Origin: Candidatus Nitrosocosmicus sp.
GTDB taxonomy: Archaea > Thermoproteota > Nitrososphaeria > Nitrososphaerales > Nitrososphaeraceae
Direction of reading: 5' to 3'
Assembly: GCA_025934495.1 (NCBI GenBank)
Contig: JAICXY010000002.1
Location: 1-64,000 of the forward strand
DNA: 64,000 nucleotides
Shown piece after piece: positions 3,107-8,371 of the stretch. Position numbers and translations under genes: made by a program. The notes beneath the pieces are model-generated. The model saw only the letters and a list, made by a program, of their open reading frames with translations, was not told the DNA's origin and searched no databases. The stretch's first letter is position 1, and each line of letters starts with the position of its first letter.

Positions 3107-3775
3107 TTAAAATTGTAAATTTGGATTTTCTTTCTTTAGTTTTCCCCAATCTGCCAAAAAGACATCCAAGCCCTTATCAGTCAACGTGTGATAAATCATT
3201 TTTTGAAGTATTTCAGGAGGCAATGTAACAACATCTGCACCAAGTTTGGCAGATTCGATCACATGAATAGGATGGCGAATGCTAGCAACAAGCACTTGTG
3301 TAGTTATGTCATAGTTTGTAAAAATTTGTACAATATCACTTATCAAGGTCAATCCATCGTGTCCTATATCATCTAACCGTCCAATAAATGGACTTACATA
3401 GGTTGCTCCAGCCTTTGCTGCAAGTAATGCTTGATTTGCAGAAAAAATCAGTGTTACGTTAGTTTTAATGTTTTTTTTAGTTAAAAAATTGATAGCCTTT
3501 AAACCTACGCTACTCATGGGAATTTTCACTACCACGTTATCACCGTAATTAGCAAGTTTTAACGATTCCTCGATTATCTCCTCAAAATCAATTGCAACTA
3601 TCTCCAAACTCACCGGACCGTCTACAAGTTTGACAATATTCCTCATTAGGTCAATTGGATCTCTCGATTTTTCTTTCAAAAGGAGACTTGGATTTGTAGT
3701 AATACCATCTACAATTCCAAGTTCTAGATATTTTTTTATCGCTTCAATATTGGCAGTATCTAAAAATATTTTCAT
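3107..3775 (-). CDS. tal: Transaldolase / fructose-6-phosphate aldolase family
   Basis: MKIFLDTANIEAIKKYLELGIVDGITTNPSLL...VVVKIPMSSVGLKAI...NVTLIFSANQALLAAKAGATYVSPFIGRLDD; typical short (MipB/TalC-like) transaldolase. Confidence 0.92.
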   Translation of the reverse strand: MKIFLDTANIEAIKKYLELGIVDGITTNPSLLLKEKSRDPIDLMRNIVKLVDGPVSLEIVAIDFEEIIEESLKLANYGDNVVVKIPMSSVGLKAINFLTKKNIKTNVTLIFSANQALLAAKAGATYVSPFIGRLDDIGHDGLTLISDIVQIFTNYDITTQVLVASIRHPIHVIESAKLGADVVTLPPEILQKMIYHTLTDKGLDVFLADWGKLKKENPNLQF

Positions 3776-4749
3776 CTTCTATCACTTTTTTTTAATTGAA
3801 TCACATTCTTTACTATTTCTTTTGGAGATAAACCATATTTATCAAATAATTGATCTATTTCATCATCACGTGCAGATTCACCAAACAAATCACGTACACC
3901 TAATTTCTTTACGAGTGTGGGACAATATTCGGAAGTAACGTCAGAAATAGAGGAACCTAGTCCACCTATGATACTATGTTCCTCTATCGAAACAATAGGA
4001 CCAGCTTCTTTAACACACTGGTAGATCAAATCCCTGTCAATTGGCTTTATTGAATACATGTCAACAACTCTACAAGCAATACCATGTTCTTTTTTTAAAA
4101 TATTGCTGGCATTAATGGAGGATGTCACCATAGTTCCGCATGAAAACAAACTTAAATCATTACCATCGATTAATATATTACCCCTGCCAATCTTAAATTC
4201 AGAATTTCTATCATAGATTTCAGGAGTCGAAGGACGAGCTAATCTCACATAAAATGGCCCAGAAATACTTGCTATTTGTTTTATCAATTTTTTTGTTGTA
4301 ATAGAATCCGACGGAACTAAAACTTTCATATTAGGAAGAGATTTCATTACGGAAATATCCTCTATTTGCTGGTGAGTAGCGCCATCAGGTCCTACAGATA
4401 ACCCCGCATGAGAAACTACAATTTTCACATTAAGATTGGGATAACAAATTGCATTTCTTATTTGGTCTAAACATCTGCCAGGAATAAATGCTGCATATGT
4501 ACTTGCAAATGAAATCTTTCCAGCTATTGCCAAGCCTGCAGCTATCGAAACCAAATTTGCTTCTGCAATACCTACATTATAAAGCCTATCTGGGAATCTA
4601 TCCCCAAATACTTTTGTTTTTAATGAATCAGTAGTATCTCCACCCACACATACAACATTAGGATATTCATTACCTAAACTAACCAATGCTTCCCCATATG
4701 CTGATCTCATTTCTGAGATTTGTACACTAGTACTCAAAGAAAATGACAT
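3772..4749 (-). CDS. Transketolase, C-terminal (pyrimidine-binding) subunit
   Basis: RSAYGEALVSLGNEYPNVVCVGGDTTDSLKT...NVGIAEANLVSIAAGLAIAGKISFASTYAAF...GLSVGPDGATHQQIEDI. 4-nt overlap with the transaldolase CDS. Confidence 0.92.
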   Translation of the reverse strand: MSFSLSTSVQISEMRSAYGEALVSLGNEYPNVVCVGGDTTDSLKTKVFGDRFPDRLYNVGIAEANLVSIAAGLAIAGKISFASTYAAFIPGRCLDQIRNAICYPNLNVKIVVSHAGLSVGPDGATHQQIEDISVMKSLPNMKVLVPSDSITTKKLIKQIASISGPFYVRLARPSTPEIYDRNSEFKIGRGNILIDGNDLSLFSCGTMVTSSINASNILKKEHGIACRVVDMYSIKPIDRDLIYQCVKEAGPIVSIEEHSIIGGLGSSISDVTSEYCPTLVKKLGVRDLFGESARDDEIDQLFDKYGLSPKEIVKNVIQLKKSDRR

Positions 4750-4792: not shown

Positions 4793-6427
4793 TTATAATT
4801 TTTTTTGTTCCCATATCTTATTAACCACATTAAATCTATTTAGAATTTCTTTTCTATTTTTTATCCAATCATCTTTTATATCATACGAATCTGATTCTAT
4901 TAACAATTCTTTTTCAAGAATTGAATTCAATAAAAATTTCGTATTTTTGAGTGTTTCAATAATATTGTCAGAGCCGAAAATAGCATTACCCATAACAAAA
5001 ATTCTGCAACCTGCTTCATAACAAGAAGATATTGTTGACAAATCAATGCCGCCATCAGCTTCAAAATATCCGCTATATCCATTACTTTTAAGATCAGGAA
5101 TCAAGTTTTTCATTTTAGGTAAAACAGATGGAATAAACTTTTGGCCCGCAAAACCCGGATTAACCGACATGATTATTATTACATCTAAACGATCTAGGTA
5201 GTGATATATCCATTTTGGTAATTCGGTATTTGGATTAATTGCTAAACCTGGGCTTACACCATTAGAAATTATTTTATTATTTATTTTTTCAAATTCTTTT
5301 TCATCATTACATACCTCTACATGAACAGTAATTACATCACATCCAGCATCAATGTATGAATCTAAAACATCAAATGGGTTATTTATCATCAAATGAGTAT
5401 CAAATGGCAGCTTTGTTATTCCGCGTAAATTTTTTATAGTATCATGAAAAAATGTTGTATTTGGTACAAATTTTCCATCCATGACGTCAAGATGAATCAT
5501 ATCCACGCCGAATTTTTCAACTGTTTCAATTTTCGATTCAAAACTTTCTTTGCTCCCGCCTGCAATTATAGAAGGCGAAATCATATATTCACCTTCCAGT
5601 TCCTTTATCAAAAGTGGAAGATGCTTTTTAGAAGGGGCCCTACCATGCCATTGTGGATTATTTGCCATATGTTTTATCCCATTTCCTTTTACGGTATTAG
5701 CTATTATGATTTTAGGTTTTCCTATAGACCTTGTTTTAAGTGCATTGATTAGTTGTTCTATTCTATGACCATTTACTTCGACCACATTCCAATTAAAAGA
5801 TAGCCATTTTTCTTTCAGCGGGTCCAGAGGCATAATGTCGTCGCTAAACCCGTCTTGTTGAATTTTATTTCTATCCAAAATTGCAACTATATTATCTAAT
5901 TTAAATTTTGCAGCAGCCATTGCGGCTTCCCATACTTGACCTTCATTAATTTCCCCGTCACCTAACAGACAATAAACCATATTGTTTTTATTATCGAGTT
6001 TATTTGCAAGACCAATACCAACAGATATGGATAATCCTATTCCTTCAGATCCACCAGAATACTCTATTCCTGGAACACTATGATGCTTTTGAAAATCACT
6101 GTATCTAACAGGATGACCTTGCAATCTCGAATTTAATTTTCGTAATGTCTTTATTTCTTCTTTTGGAAATGAACCGGCAATAGATAATATGGCATAGTAA
6201 CCTGGAGCCGAATGAGCTTTAGAATTTATAAAATAATCTCGGCTTTGTAAGAATGGGTTGGCGATATCCAAGTTCATAATTTGAAAATAAAGAGCACCCA
6301 TAATTTCTGCAGCAGAAAAAGAAGCACCAGGGTGACCTGAACCAGCTTCAGCTATTCCTATGAGTGCCAAAGTTCTTACCTCCTTAATTTTATTTTTTAA
6401 CGCTAAAAACCTGTTTACATCATGCAT
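4793..6427 (-). CDS. Fusion: transketolase N-terminal (TPP-binding) subunit plus ribulose-phosphate 3-epimerase
   Basis: N-terminal half: EAGSGHPGASFSAAEI...LLGDGEINEGQVWEAAMAAAKFKLDNIVAILDRNKIQQDG. From about residue 280: MISPSIIAGGSKESFESKIETVEKFGVDMIHLDVMDGKFVPNTTF...DTHLMI...HVEV...SVNPGFAGQKFIPSVLPKM...EADGGID (Rpe). One uninterrupted 544-aa frame. Confidence 0.9.
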   Translation of the reverse strand: MHDVNRFLALKNKIKEVRTLALIGIAEAGSGHPGASFSAAEIMGALYFQIMNLDIANPFLQSRDYFINSKAHSAPGYYAILSIAGSFPKEEIKTLRKLNSRLQGHPVRYSDFQKHHSVPGIEYSGGSEGIGLSISVGIGLANKLDNKNNMVYCLLGDGEINEGQVWEAAMAAAKFKLDNIVAILDRNKIQQDGFSDDIMPLDPLKEKWLSFNWNVVEVNGHRIEQLINALKTRSIGKPKIIIANTVKGNGIKHMANNPQWHGRAPSKKHLPLLIKELEGEYMISPSIIAGGSKESFESKIETVEKFGVDMIHLDVMDGKFVPNTTFFHDTIKNLRGITKLPFDTHLMINNPFDVLDSYIDAGCDVITVHVEVCNDEKEFEKINNKIISNGVSPGLAINPNTELPKWIYHYLDRLDVIIIMSVNPGFAGQKFIPSVLPKMKNLIPDLKSNGYSGYFEADGGIDLSTISSCYEAGCRIFVMGNAIFGSDNIIETLKNTKFLLNSILEKELLIESDSYDIKDDWIKNRKEILNRFNVVNKIWEQKKL

Positions 6428-6546
6428 AAATTAAATTCACCATTATCATATAATCAAGGGTACAATAGCATGTAAAAGAGAGTTTCAAAGTGGAAAATAT
6501 ATAAACATGTATCCCAATGTAATCATCATATTCATTTTTTATCGGA

Positions 6547-7042: not shown

Positions 7043-8371
7043 TTATCCAGGTAGTTTGAAATTTGGTAACTGCGGCAGCTTGAAATTTGGTAACTGCGGC
7101 AGCTTGAAATTTGGTAACTGCGGCAGTTGTGGCAAGTTTGGTAATGGAGAATAGGGATTGTTATCTTGTGGACCAGGAGACAATAATGAAAAAGTGTTAT
7201 TTAATAAAGATAAAGCAGGGCGAGGTGTTAAAGTTGCTGTCAAATTTAATATTTGTCCATTTCTATTAACAGTCAGTTTGAGATCATCACCTACTTTTTT
7301 ATTTAAATCCAAATAGGAAATAACATCATCGATTCTTGAAACAGGGATTTTATCTACTCCAATAAGAATATCTTTTTCAATAATTCGTTGGTGGCCATAC
7401 ATATCAACTTGGATGACCAAACCCCTCAAACCGGCTTTAGCGGCAGGTCCATCTTTTACCACGTTATCGATTAGTACACCTTTATAATTTCGCGGAAGAC
7501 CAAATAGATCAGTTAAATCAGGGGACAGTTTAGAGCCAGAAATTCCAAGCCAGGGATGTTGATAAGTTCCATTTTTTATCAATGAAGGAATTGCCCTAAG
7601 AATATCATATGAAGGAATTGCAAAACCTACACCAGTATAAGCACCAGTATTTGAAAATATGGCAGTATTCATACCTATAACAGATCCGTTCAAATTAATG
7701 AGAGGTCCTCCTGAATTTCCTGGATTTATTGCGGCATCTGTTTGGATTACATTAGGTATGGAATATCCGGAATCAGAATCAGGTAAAAGTCTGCCCATTT
7801 GACTTATAATCCCAAAAGTTAAAGTATTATCCAAACCGTAGGGATTTCCGATAGCAAGAACAGGATCGCCTACTTTTAAGTTTGTAGAATTAGAAAATAT
7901 TACGGGCACCAAATTTTCATTCACAGGATCTACTAATTTGATTACTGCAATGTCTCCATATGGATCTGTTCCAACTAATTTTGCAGAATATGAATTTCCA
8001 TCGTTGAATGTAACTACAATATTAATGGCAGAACTTACAACATGATAATTTGTAATAATATAACCTGATTTATCATATACGAATCCAGATCCATATTTTG
8101 CAGGCATTGAATTAGCACTATTTGTATCAAATAATGGATTAGACGTATATGAAGAAGATTTATATTCAGTGGTAATTTGCACCACTGAATCTTTTACCTT
8201 ACGAAAAGCATCATTTAATAAATTATTACCATTGCCGAACAATCCCGGAATCTGCTGCTGTTTTGAATTTTGACCATGAGCCTGAAAAGAGGATATAACA
8301 ATGCTCGAAAGTAGGAGCAAACTAAAAAAAAATATAAAACTTTGTTTATTAAAAAGAATATTCATATGCAC
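7043..8371 (-). CDS. HtrA/DegP-like secreted trypsin-type serine protease with PDZ domain and repetitive Pro-rich C-terminus
   Basis: N-terminal signal/TM; triad motifs TNYHVV (H), GDIAVIK (D), NPGNSGGPL (S); PDZ GPAAKAGLRG; C-terminal LPQLPNFK repeats. Confidence 0.9.
   Translation of the reverse strand: MHMNILFNKQSFIFFFSLLLLSSIVISSFQAHGQNSKQQQIPGLFGNGNNLLNDAFRKVKDSVVQITTEYKSSSYTSNPLFDTNSANSMPAKYGSGFVYDKSGYIITNYHVVSSAINIVVTFNDGNSYSAKLVGTDPYGDIAVIKLVDPVNENLVPVIFSNSTNLKVGDPVLAIGNPYGLDNTLTFGIISQMGRLLPDSDSGYSIPNVIQTDAAINPGNSGGPLINLNGSVIGMNTAIFSNTGAYTGVGFAIPSYDILRAIPSLIKNGTYQHPWLGISGSKLSPDLTDLFGLPRNYKGVLIDNVVKDGPAAKAGLRGLVIQVDMYGHQRIIEKDILIGVDKIPVSRIDDVISYLDLNKKVGDDLKLTVNRNGQILNLTATLTPRPALSLLNNTFSLLSPGPQDNNPYSPLPNLPQLPQLPNFKLPQLPNFKLPQLPNFKLPG
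7065..7140 (-). repeat. In-frame tandem repeat (about 24-nt unit, about 3 copies) at the 3' end of the htrA-like gene
   Basis: agcttgaaatttggtaactgcggc repeated; encodes (LPQLPNFK)n. Confidence 0.85.

Follow-up and report, generated by a model that had tools for sequence, protein, structure and literature searches.

The gene at positions 4,793 to 6,427 (minus strand) joins the N-terminal half of a split transketolase (TktN) to a complete ribulose-phosphate 3-epimerase (Rpe), and judging by its sequence the product is very probably (about 0.9) a bifunctional subunit in which xylulose-5-phosphate is produced next to the transketolase that consumes it. The gene lies in a 64,000-nt stretch of DNA, here called the window, from a soil archaeon with a Nitrosocosmicus-like genome (Nitrososphaeraceae), and close relatives of the fusion are those of Candidatus Nitrosocosmicus. 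The fusion as such is already known: TktN-Rpe was described as cluster 341.1 by Padalko, Nair and Sousa (2024, mSystems, PMC11237513), who report it from 73 of 98 Thaumarchaeota assemblies. Our 544-aa protein, with a transketolase N-terminus and a ribulose-phosphate 3-epimerase in one thaumarchaeal ORF, is a member of this cluster; both fusion and lineage are the same, and there is no difference in kind from what the available text describes. Relative to the available text of PMC11237513, our analysis adds the mapping of the split-to-fused transition, the fixed junction, the fusion-specific extension, the operon order and a fusion in the reverse order.

Architecture and function of the fusion protein

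The fusion gene and its parts are as follows.

4793..6427, minus strand: whole fusion gene (tktN-rpe), coding for 544 aa; PP/TPP domain of the transketolase N-half, ribulose-phosphate 3-epimerase and C-terminal extension
5633..6394, minus strand: Transketolase_N (PP) domain, aa 12-265 (Pfam PF00456, E=4.9e-39); GDG(E) motif and family active-site residues kept
5585..5590, minus strand: TktN/Rpe junction, E280-Y281, two residues between the C-terminal helix of TktN and Met282 of Rpe
4976..5581, minus strand: Rpe domain, aa 283-484 (PF00834, Ribul_P_3_epim, E=3e-55)
4796..4942, minus strand: C-terminal extension, about aa 496-544; helical, L508 and W521 invariant, specific to fused proteins

The ORF opens with ATG and contains zero internal stops, and together with the Pfam domains this bears out the original prediction of a continuous 544-aa TktN-Rpe frame. 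The Rpe domain spans the full PF00834 profile (2-198 of 198) and about 50-60 aa remain after its end, in line with the extension of about 50 aa that had been predicted. In an alignment of 33 fused orthologues, G156-D157-G158, H32, H72, H105 and H261 of the TktN half are invariant, which we take from general knowledge of transketolases to be the TPP-binding motif and the active-site histidines of the PP chain. The same alignment shows H312, D314, H345 and D458 of the Rpe half to be invariant, and these presumably correspond to the metal-ligand and acid/base residues generally known for Rpe. The conservation of these residues suggests that the fusion has both epimerase and transketolase activity.

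An AlphaFold model of the fusion, computed for the monomer only, has a mean pLDDT of 87 and a pTM of 0.89, and places the C-terminal extension in a helix (489-514) followed by short helices. Helix 267-278 of TktN leads almost straight into Rpe strand 282-286 in this model, with good confidence, and the two-residue domain spacing is identical in all 61 distinct fused proteins. This fixed junction, without a longer flexible linker, makes it very unlikely that the two halves are cut apart by proteolysis after translation, leaving the fusion as a mere co-expression device, a reading that has no positive support.

In the mechanism that we favor, the N-terminal PP domain would pair with the separately encoded TktC to form a TPP-binding transketolase of the split type (alpha2beta2), and the C-terminal TIM barrel would interconvert ribulose-5-phosphate and xylulose-5-phosphate, the ketose that transketolase takes as donor or releases as product. 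Being fused would fix production at 1:1 and set the epimerase beside the transketolase, so that two consecutive steps are held together. We infer the alpha2beta2 assembly and a possible kinetic benefit, through proximity or channelling, of which channelling is purely conjectural.

In the fused genomes examined, no credible Rpe exists besides the fused one. The genome of the window and all of 18 others with the fusion yielded no second strong Rpe but only faint TIM-barrel matches, and a stand-alone back-up enzyme in these genomes was rejected. It is possible, if doubtful, that Rpe and the PP chain form a true metabolon, in which the fusion with its C-terminal extension would hold the active sites close and channel xylulose-5-phosphate, and that the same coupling evolved independently as the Rpe-TktN proteins described below (loci L155 and L156).

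Distribution across genomes

Among the Nitrososphaeraceae genomes with a match, 45 of 46 have the full fusion, and the exception (G140) is a fragment at a contig edge; one further genome of the family (G145) gave no match to the fusion. All loci inspected in a second family, f9, which we infer from AmoA to be Nitrosopumilaceae, are also fused. Hence, essentially all Nitrososphaeraceae and f9 genomes with an intact gene have the fusion. The original description of the fusion as unusual holds across life as a whole; within these two families, the two largest of the ammonia-oxidizing archaea, the fusion is near-universal, and it has been in print since 2024. The draft assembly from which the window is taken is fragmented (200 contigs), and a missed stop or frameshift could in principle have created the long frame. 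However, dozens of independent genomes, single-contig ones included, have the fusion without interruption, and these relatives with the same open frame on independent contigs refute an assembly or sequencing artefact, the probability of which we regard as negligible.

In the amoA-bearing families f2, probably Nitrosocaldaceae as judged in part by its AmoA, and f3, tktN and rpe are separate genes, adjacent or overlapping, in the same operon order. The available text of PMC11237513 does not mention this split state in some amoA-bearing families. Families f8 and f10 have separate genes in the order tktN-rpe-tktC-tal as well, and a search found no AmoA in the genomes sampled from them. The split genes follow the same order in f72, which belongs to the same phylum. 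Two classes of candidates were rejected on inspection: some protein matches in f8 and f10 spanned both domains, but a stop separates two ORFs, and apparently split genes in some f9 genomes proved to be one open frame in which an insertion of about 18 aa had broken the alignment. The fusion is a clean shared marker that unites Nitrososphaeraceae and the inferred Nitrosopumilaceae and excludes the other amoA-bearing families tested.

In most f9 fusions, about 18 extra residues follow the MPLD motif of TktN (columns 205-222 of alignment A1), and the 8-residue loop that follows LQGHP in Nitrososphaeraceae (columns 109-116) is missing. The fusions of two public MAGs titled Nitrosopumilus sp. (JACDHC010000026.1 and JACDCB010000077.1) share 83% and 74% identity with the Nitrosocosmicus-like one, and these titles are probably wrong. 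In a search that reached close relatives only, the retained bacterial matches cover essentially the Rpe part; the exception is L071, a contig labelled 'bacterium' that breaks off within the gene, with 70% identity to the archaeal sequence.

Origin of the fusion and its junction

When the two domains were treed separately, the fused sequences formed one group each time, with support of 100/99 for TktN and 100/98 for Rpe. Together with the fixed two-residue junction, this is best read as a single fusion event in the common ancestor of Nitrososphaeraceae and f9, which would have followed the loss of a stop between adjacent genes. The split rpe genes of f2 and f3 adjoin the fused group in the Rpe tree (96/94). 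The starting point would have been an ancestral tktN-rpe-tktC-tal operon in which the stop between tktN and rpe was lost, the fusion being kept since. In a family farther off within the phylum, two loci (L158 in G529 and L159 in G511) have the tktN-rpe-tktC-tal arrangement unfused, which means that the operon is either older than the fusion or has been transferred.

All fused proteins continue 41-53 residues past the aligned Rpe end, whereas split Rpes continue for 7-14 residues in f3, f8 and f10 and for 13-31 in f2. As the extension is present in every fused protein and not in split Rpes, it was gained with the fusion or soon after. Our guess is that it contacts TktN, TktC or the Rpe oligomer.

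Translation might also begin inside the ORF, at Met282 (GEY-M-ISPS), and yield a free Rpe besides the fusion, as a relic of the separate ancestral gene. In the genome of the window, GGAAGGTGAATATATG offers a Shine-Dalgarno-like stretch and an ATG, and among Nitrosocosmicus-like sequences 10 of 11 have ATG, GTG or TTG at this position and 9 of 11 a Shine-Dalgarno-like stretch. However, a start-capable codon is present in just 10 of 31 other Nitrososphaeraceae sequences (ATG in 4), several f9 sequences have GCN at the Met282 position, and the Shine-Dalgarno-like stretch is found in only 1 of 19 f9 and 8 of the 31 other Nitrososphaeraceae sequences. Met282 is also simply the residue with which the ancestral Rpe began. 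In many orthologues the codon here is CTN, TTY or GCN; as the start codon has been lost from their junctions, an internal start is no conserved requirement, and the original suggestion of initiation at the Rpe methionine fails as a conserved feature. Overall we consider dual products unlikely, although internal initiation is conceivable in Nitrosocosmicus itself on the strength of its local sequence.

A fusion in the reverse order

At L155 (3096-4715, minus strand) and L156 (contigs G503:C22 and G508:C3), Rpe-TktN proteins of 537-539 aa are encoded ahead of tktC and tal. The two genomes (G503 and G508) belong to another Thermoproteota family, and their proteins are 83% identical. Rpe-TktN was not found in the remaining sampled members of that family, and its Rpe lies on a very long branch in the Rpe tree. 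As the gene is missing from the other sampled members and its Rpe is very divergent, it was probably acquired from elsewhere. Rpe-TktN is unrelated to the TktN-Rpe fusion and convergent with it. The joining of the same two domains in opposite order suggests a benefit of physical coupling, but a chance fusion within a conserved operon is also possible.

Operon neighbours and pathway content

The fusion gene is accompanied by the following features.

6498..6505, minus strand: TATA-like element TTTATATA, seen directly in the sequence some 70 nt before the ATG of the fusion
3772..4749, minus strand: tktC, transketolase C-half (Pyr and C-terminal domains), 325 aa; PF02779 (Transket_pyr) and PF02780 (Transketolase_C)
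3107..3775, minus strand: tal, TalC-type transaldolase, 222 aa; PF00923 and TIGR00875

The TATA-like element is a candidate promoter of the operon. A gap of 43 nt separates the fusion from tktC, and tktC and tal overlap by 4 nt (3772-3775); coordinates and Pfam domains here confirm the predicted split transketolase, with tktC followed by a transaldolase in a 4-nt overlap. Four pathway activities had been ascribed to the three genes, but only three are encoded (transketolase, Rpe and transaldolase), and ribose-5-phosphate isomerase (RpiA) sits on a separate contig (G000:C166:2204-2695). Further along the window, an ORF on the minus strand (7043-8371) resembles HtrA/DegP serine proteases by eye and ends in an LPQLPNFK tandem repeat.

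Transaldolases are marked at their diagnostic sites by Glu and Phe, and fructose-6-phosphate aldolase (FSA) by Gln and Tyr. The Glu in VSLEIVA and the Phe in YVSPFIGR of the tal product align with VSVEVVS and YVSPFVGR of its best-matching PDB structures, which are annotated as transaldolase. As judged from this alignment, the tal product carries diagnostic residues of the transaldolase type and not of the FSA type; TIGR00875, which it matches, bears FSA as family name. The locus supports a non-oxidative pentose phosphate pathway that is complete and, for the most part, encoded in an operon in ammonia-oxidizing archaea, a point also argued in PMC11237513.

AmoA (PF12942) gave no match in the genome of the window, but is present in all 14 relatives of the genus. 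As an AmoB-family match (PF04744) is present in the same genome, the missing AmoA is most likely an assembly gap, and a loss of ammonia oxidation is unsupported.

Comparison with known systems

The best PDB match of the TktN half is the N chain of a split transketolase (6yak, E=7.6e-71), and that of the tktC product is the corresponding C chain (6yaj, E=9e-95). The catalytic-Glu motif is present in the Pyr chain, where NVGIAE of the tktC product aligns with NMGIAE of 6yaj. In the split-gene transketolase of Carboxydothermus hydrogenoformans each chain is inactive alone, and together they form an active alpha2beta2 tetramer (PMC7661550). The archaeal system resembles it in that the PP chain and the Pyr/C-terminal chain are encoded by separate genes, neighbouring in the archaeal operon, and differs in that the archaeal PP chain has Rpe attached (6yak; PMC7661550).

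For the Rpe half, the sequence matches are to stand-alone epimerases, and a Foldseek comparison with 2fli gave a TM-score of 0.92-0.93 (by target length). Like the stand-alone Rpes 2fli, 1rpx and 1tqj, it has a complete TIM-barrel fold with conserved active-site residues; unlike them, it is fused to TktN and prolonged by a C-terminal helical segment. A further parallel is the archaeal Hps-Phi fusion (mentioned in PMC11237513), an experimentally validated bifunctional 3-hexulose-6-phosphate synthase/isomerase. Hps-Phi and TktN-Rpe are both archaeal fusions of consecutive pentose-phosphate enzymes, but Hps-Phi joins other enzymes, of another pathway.
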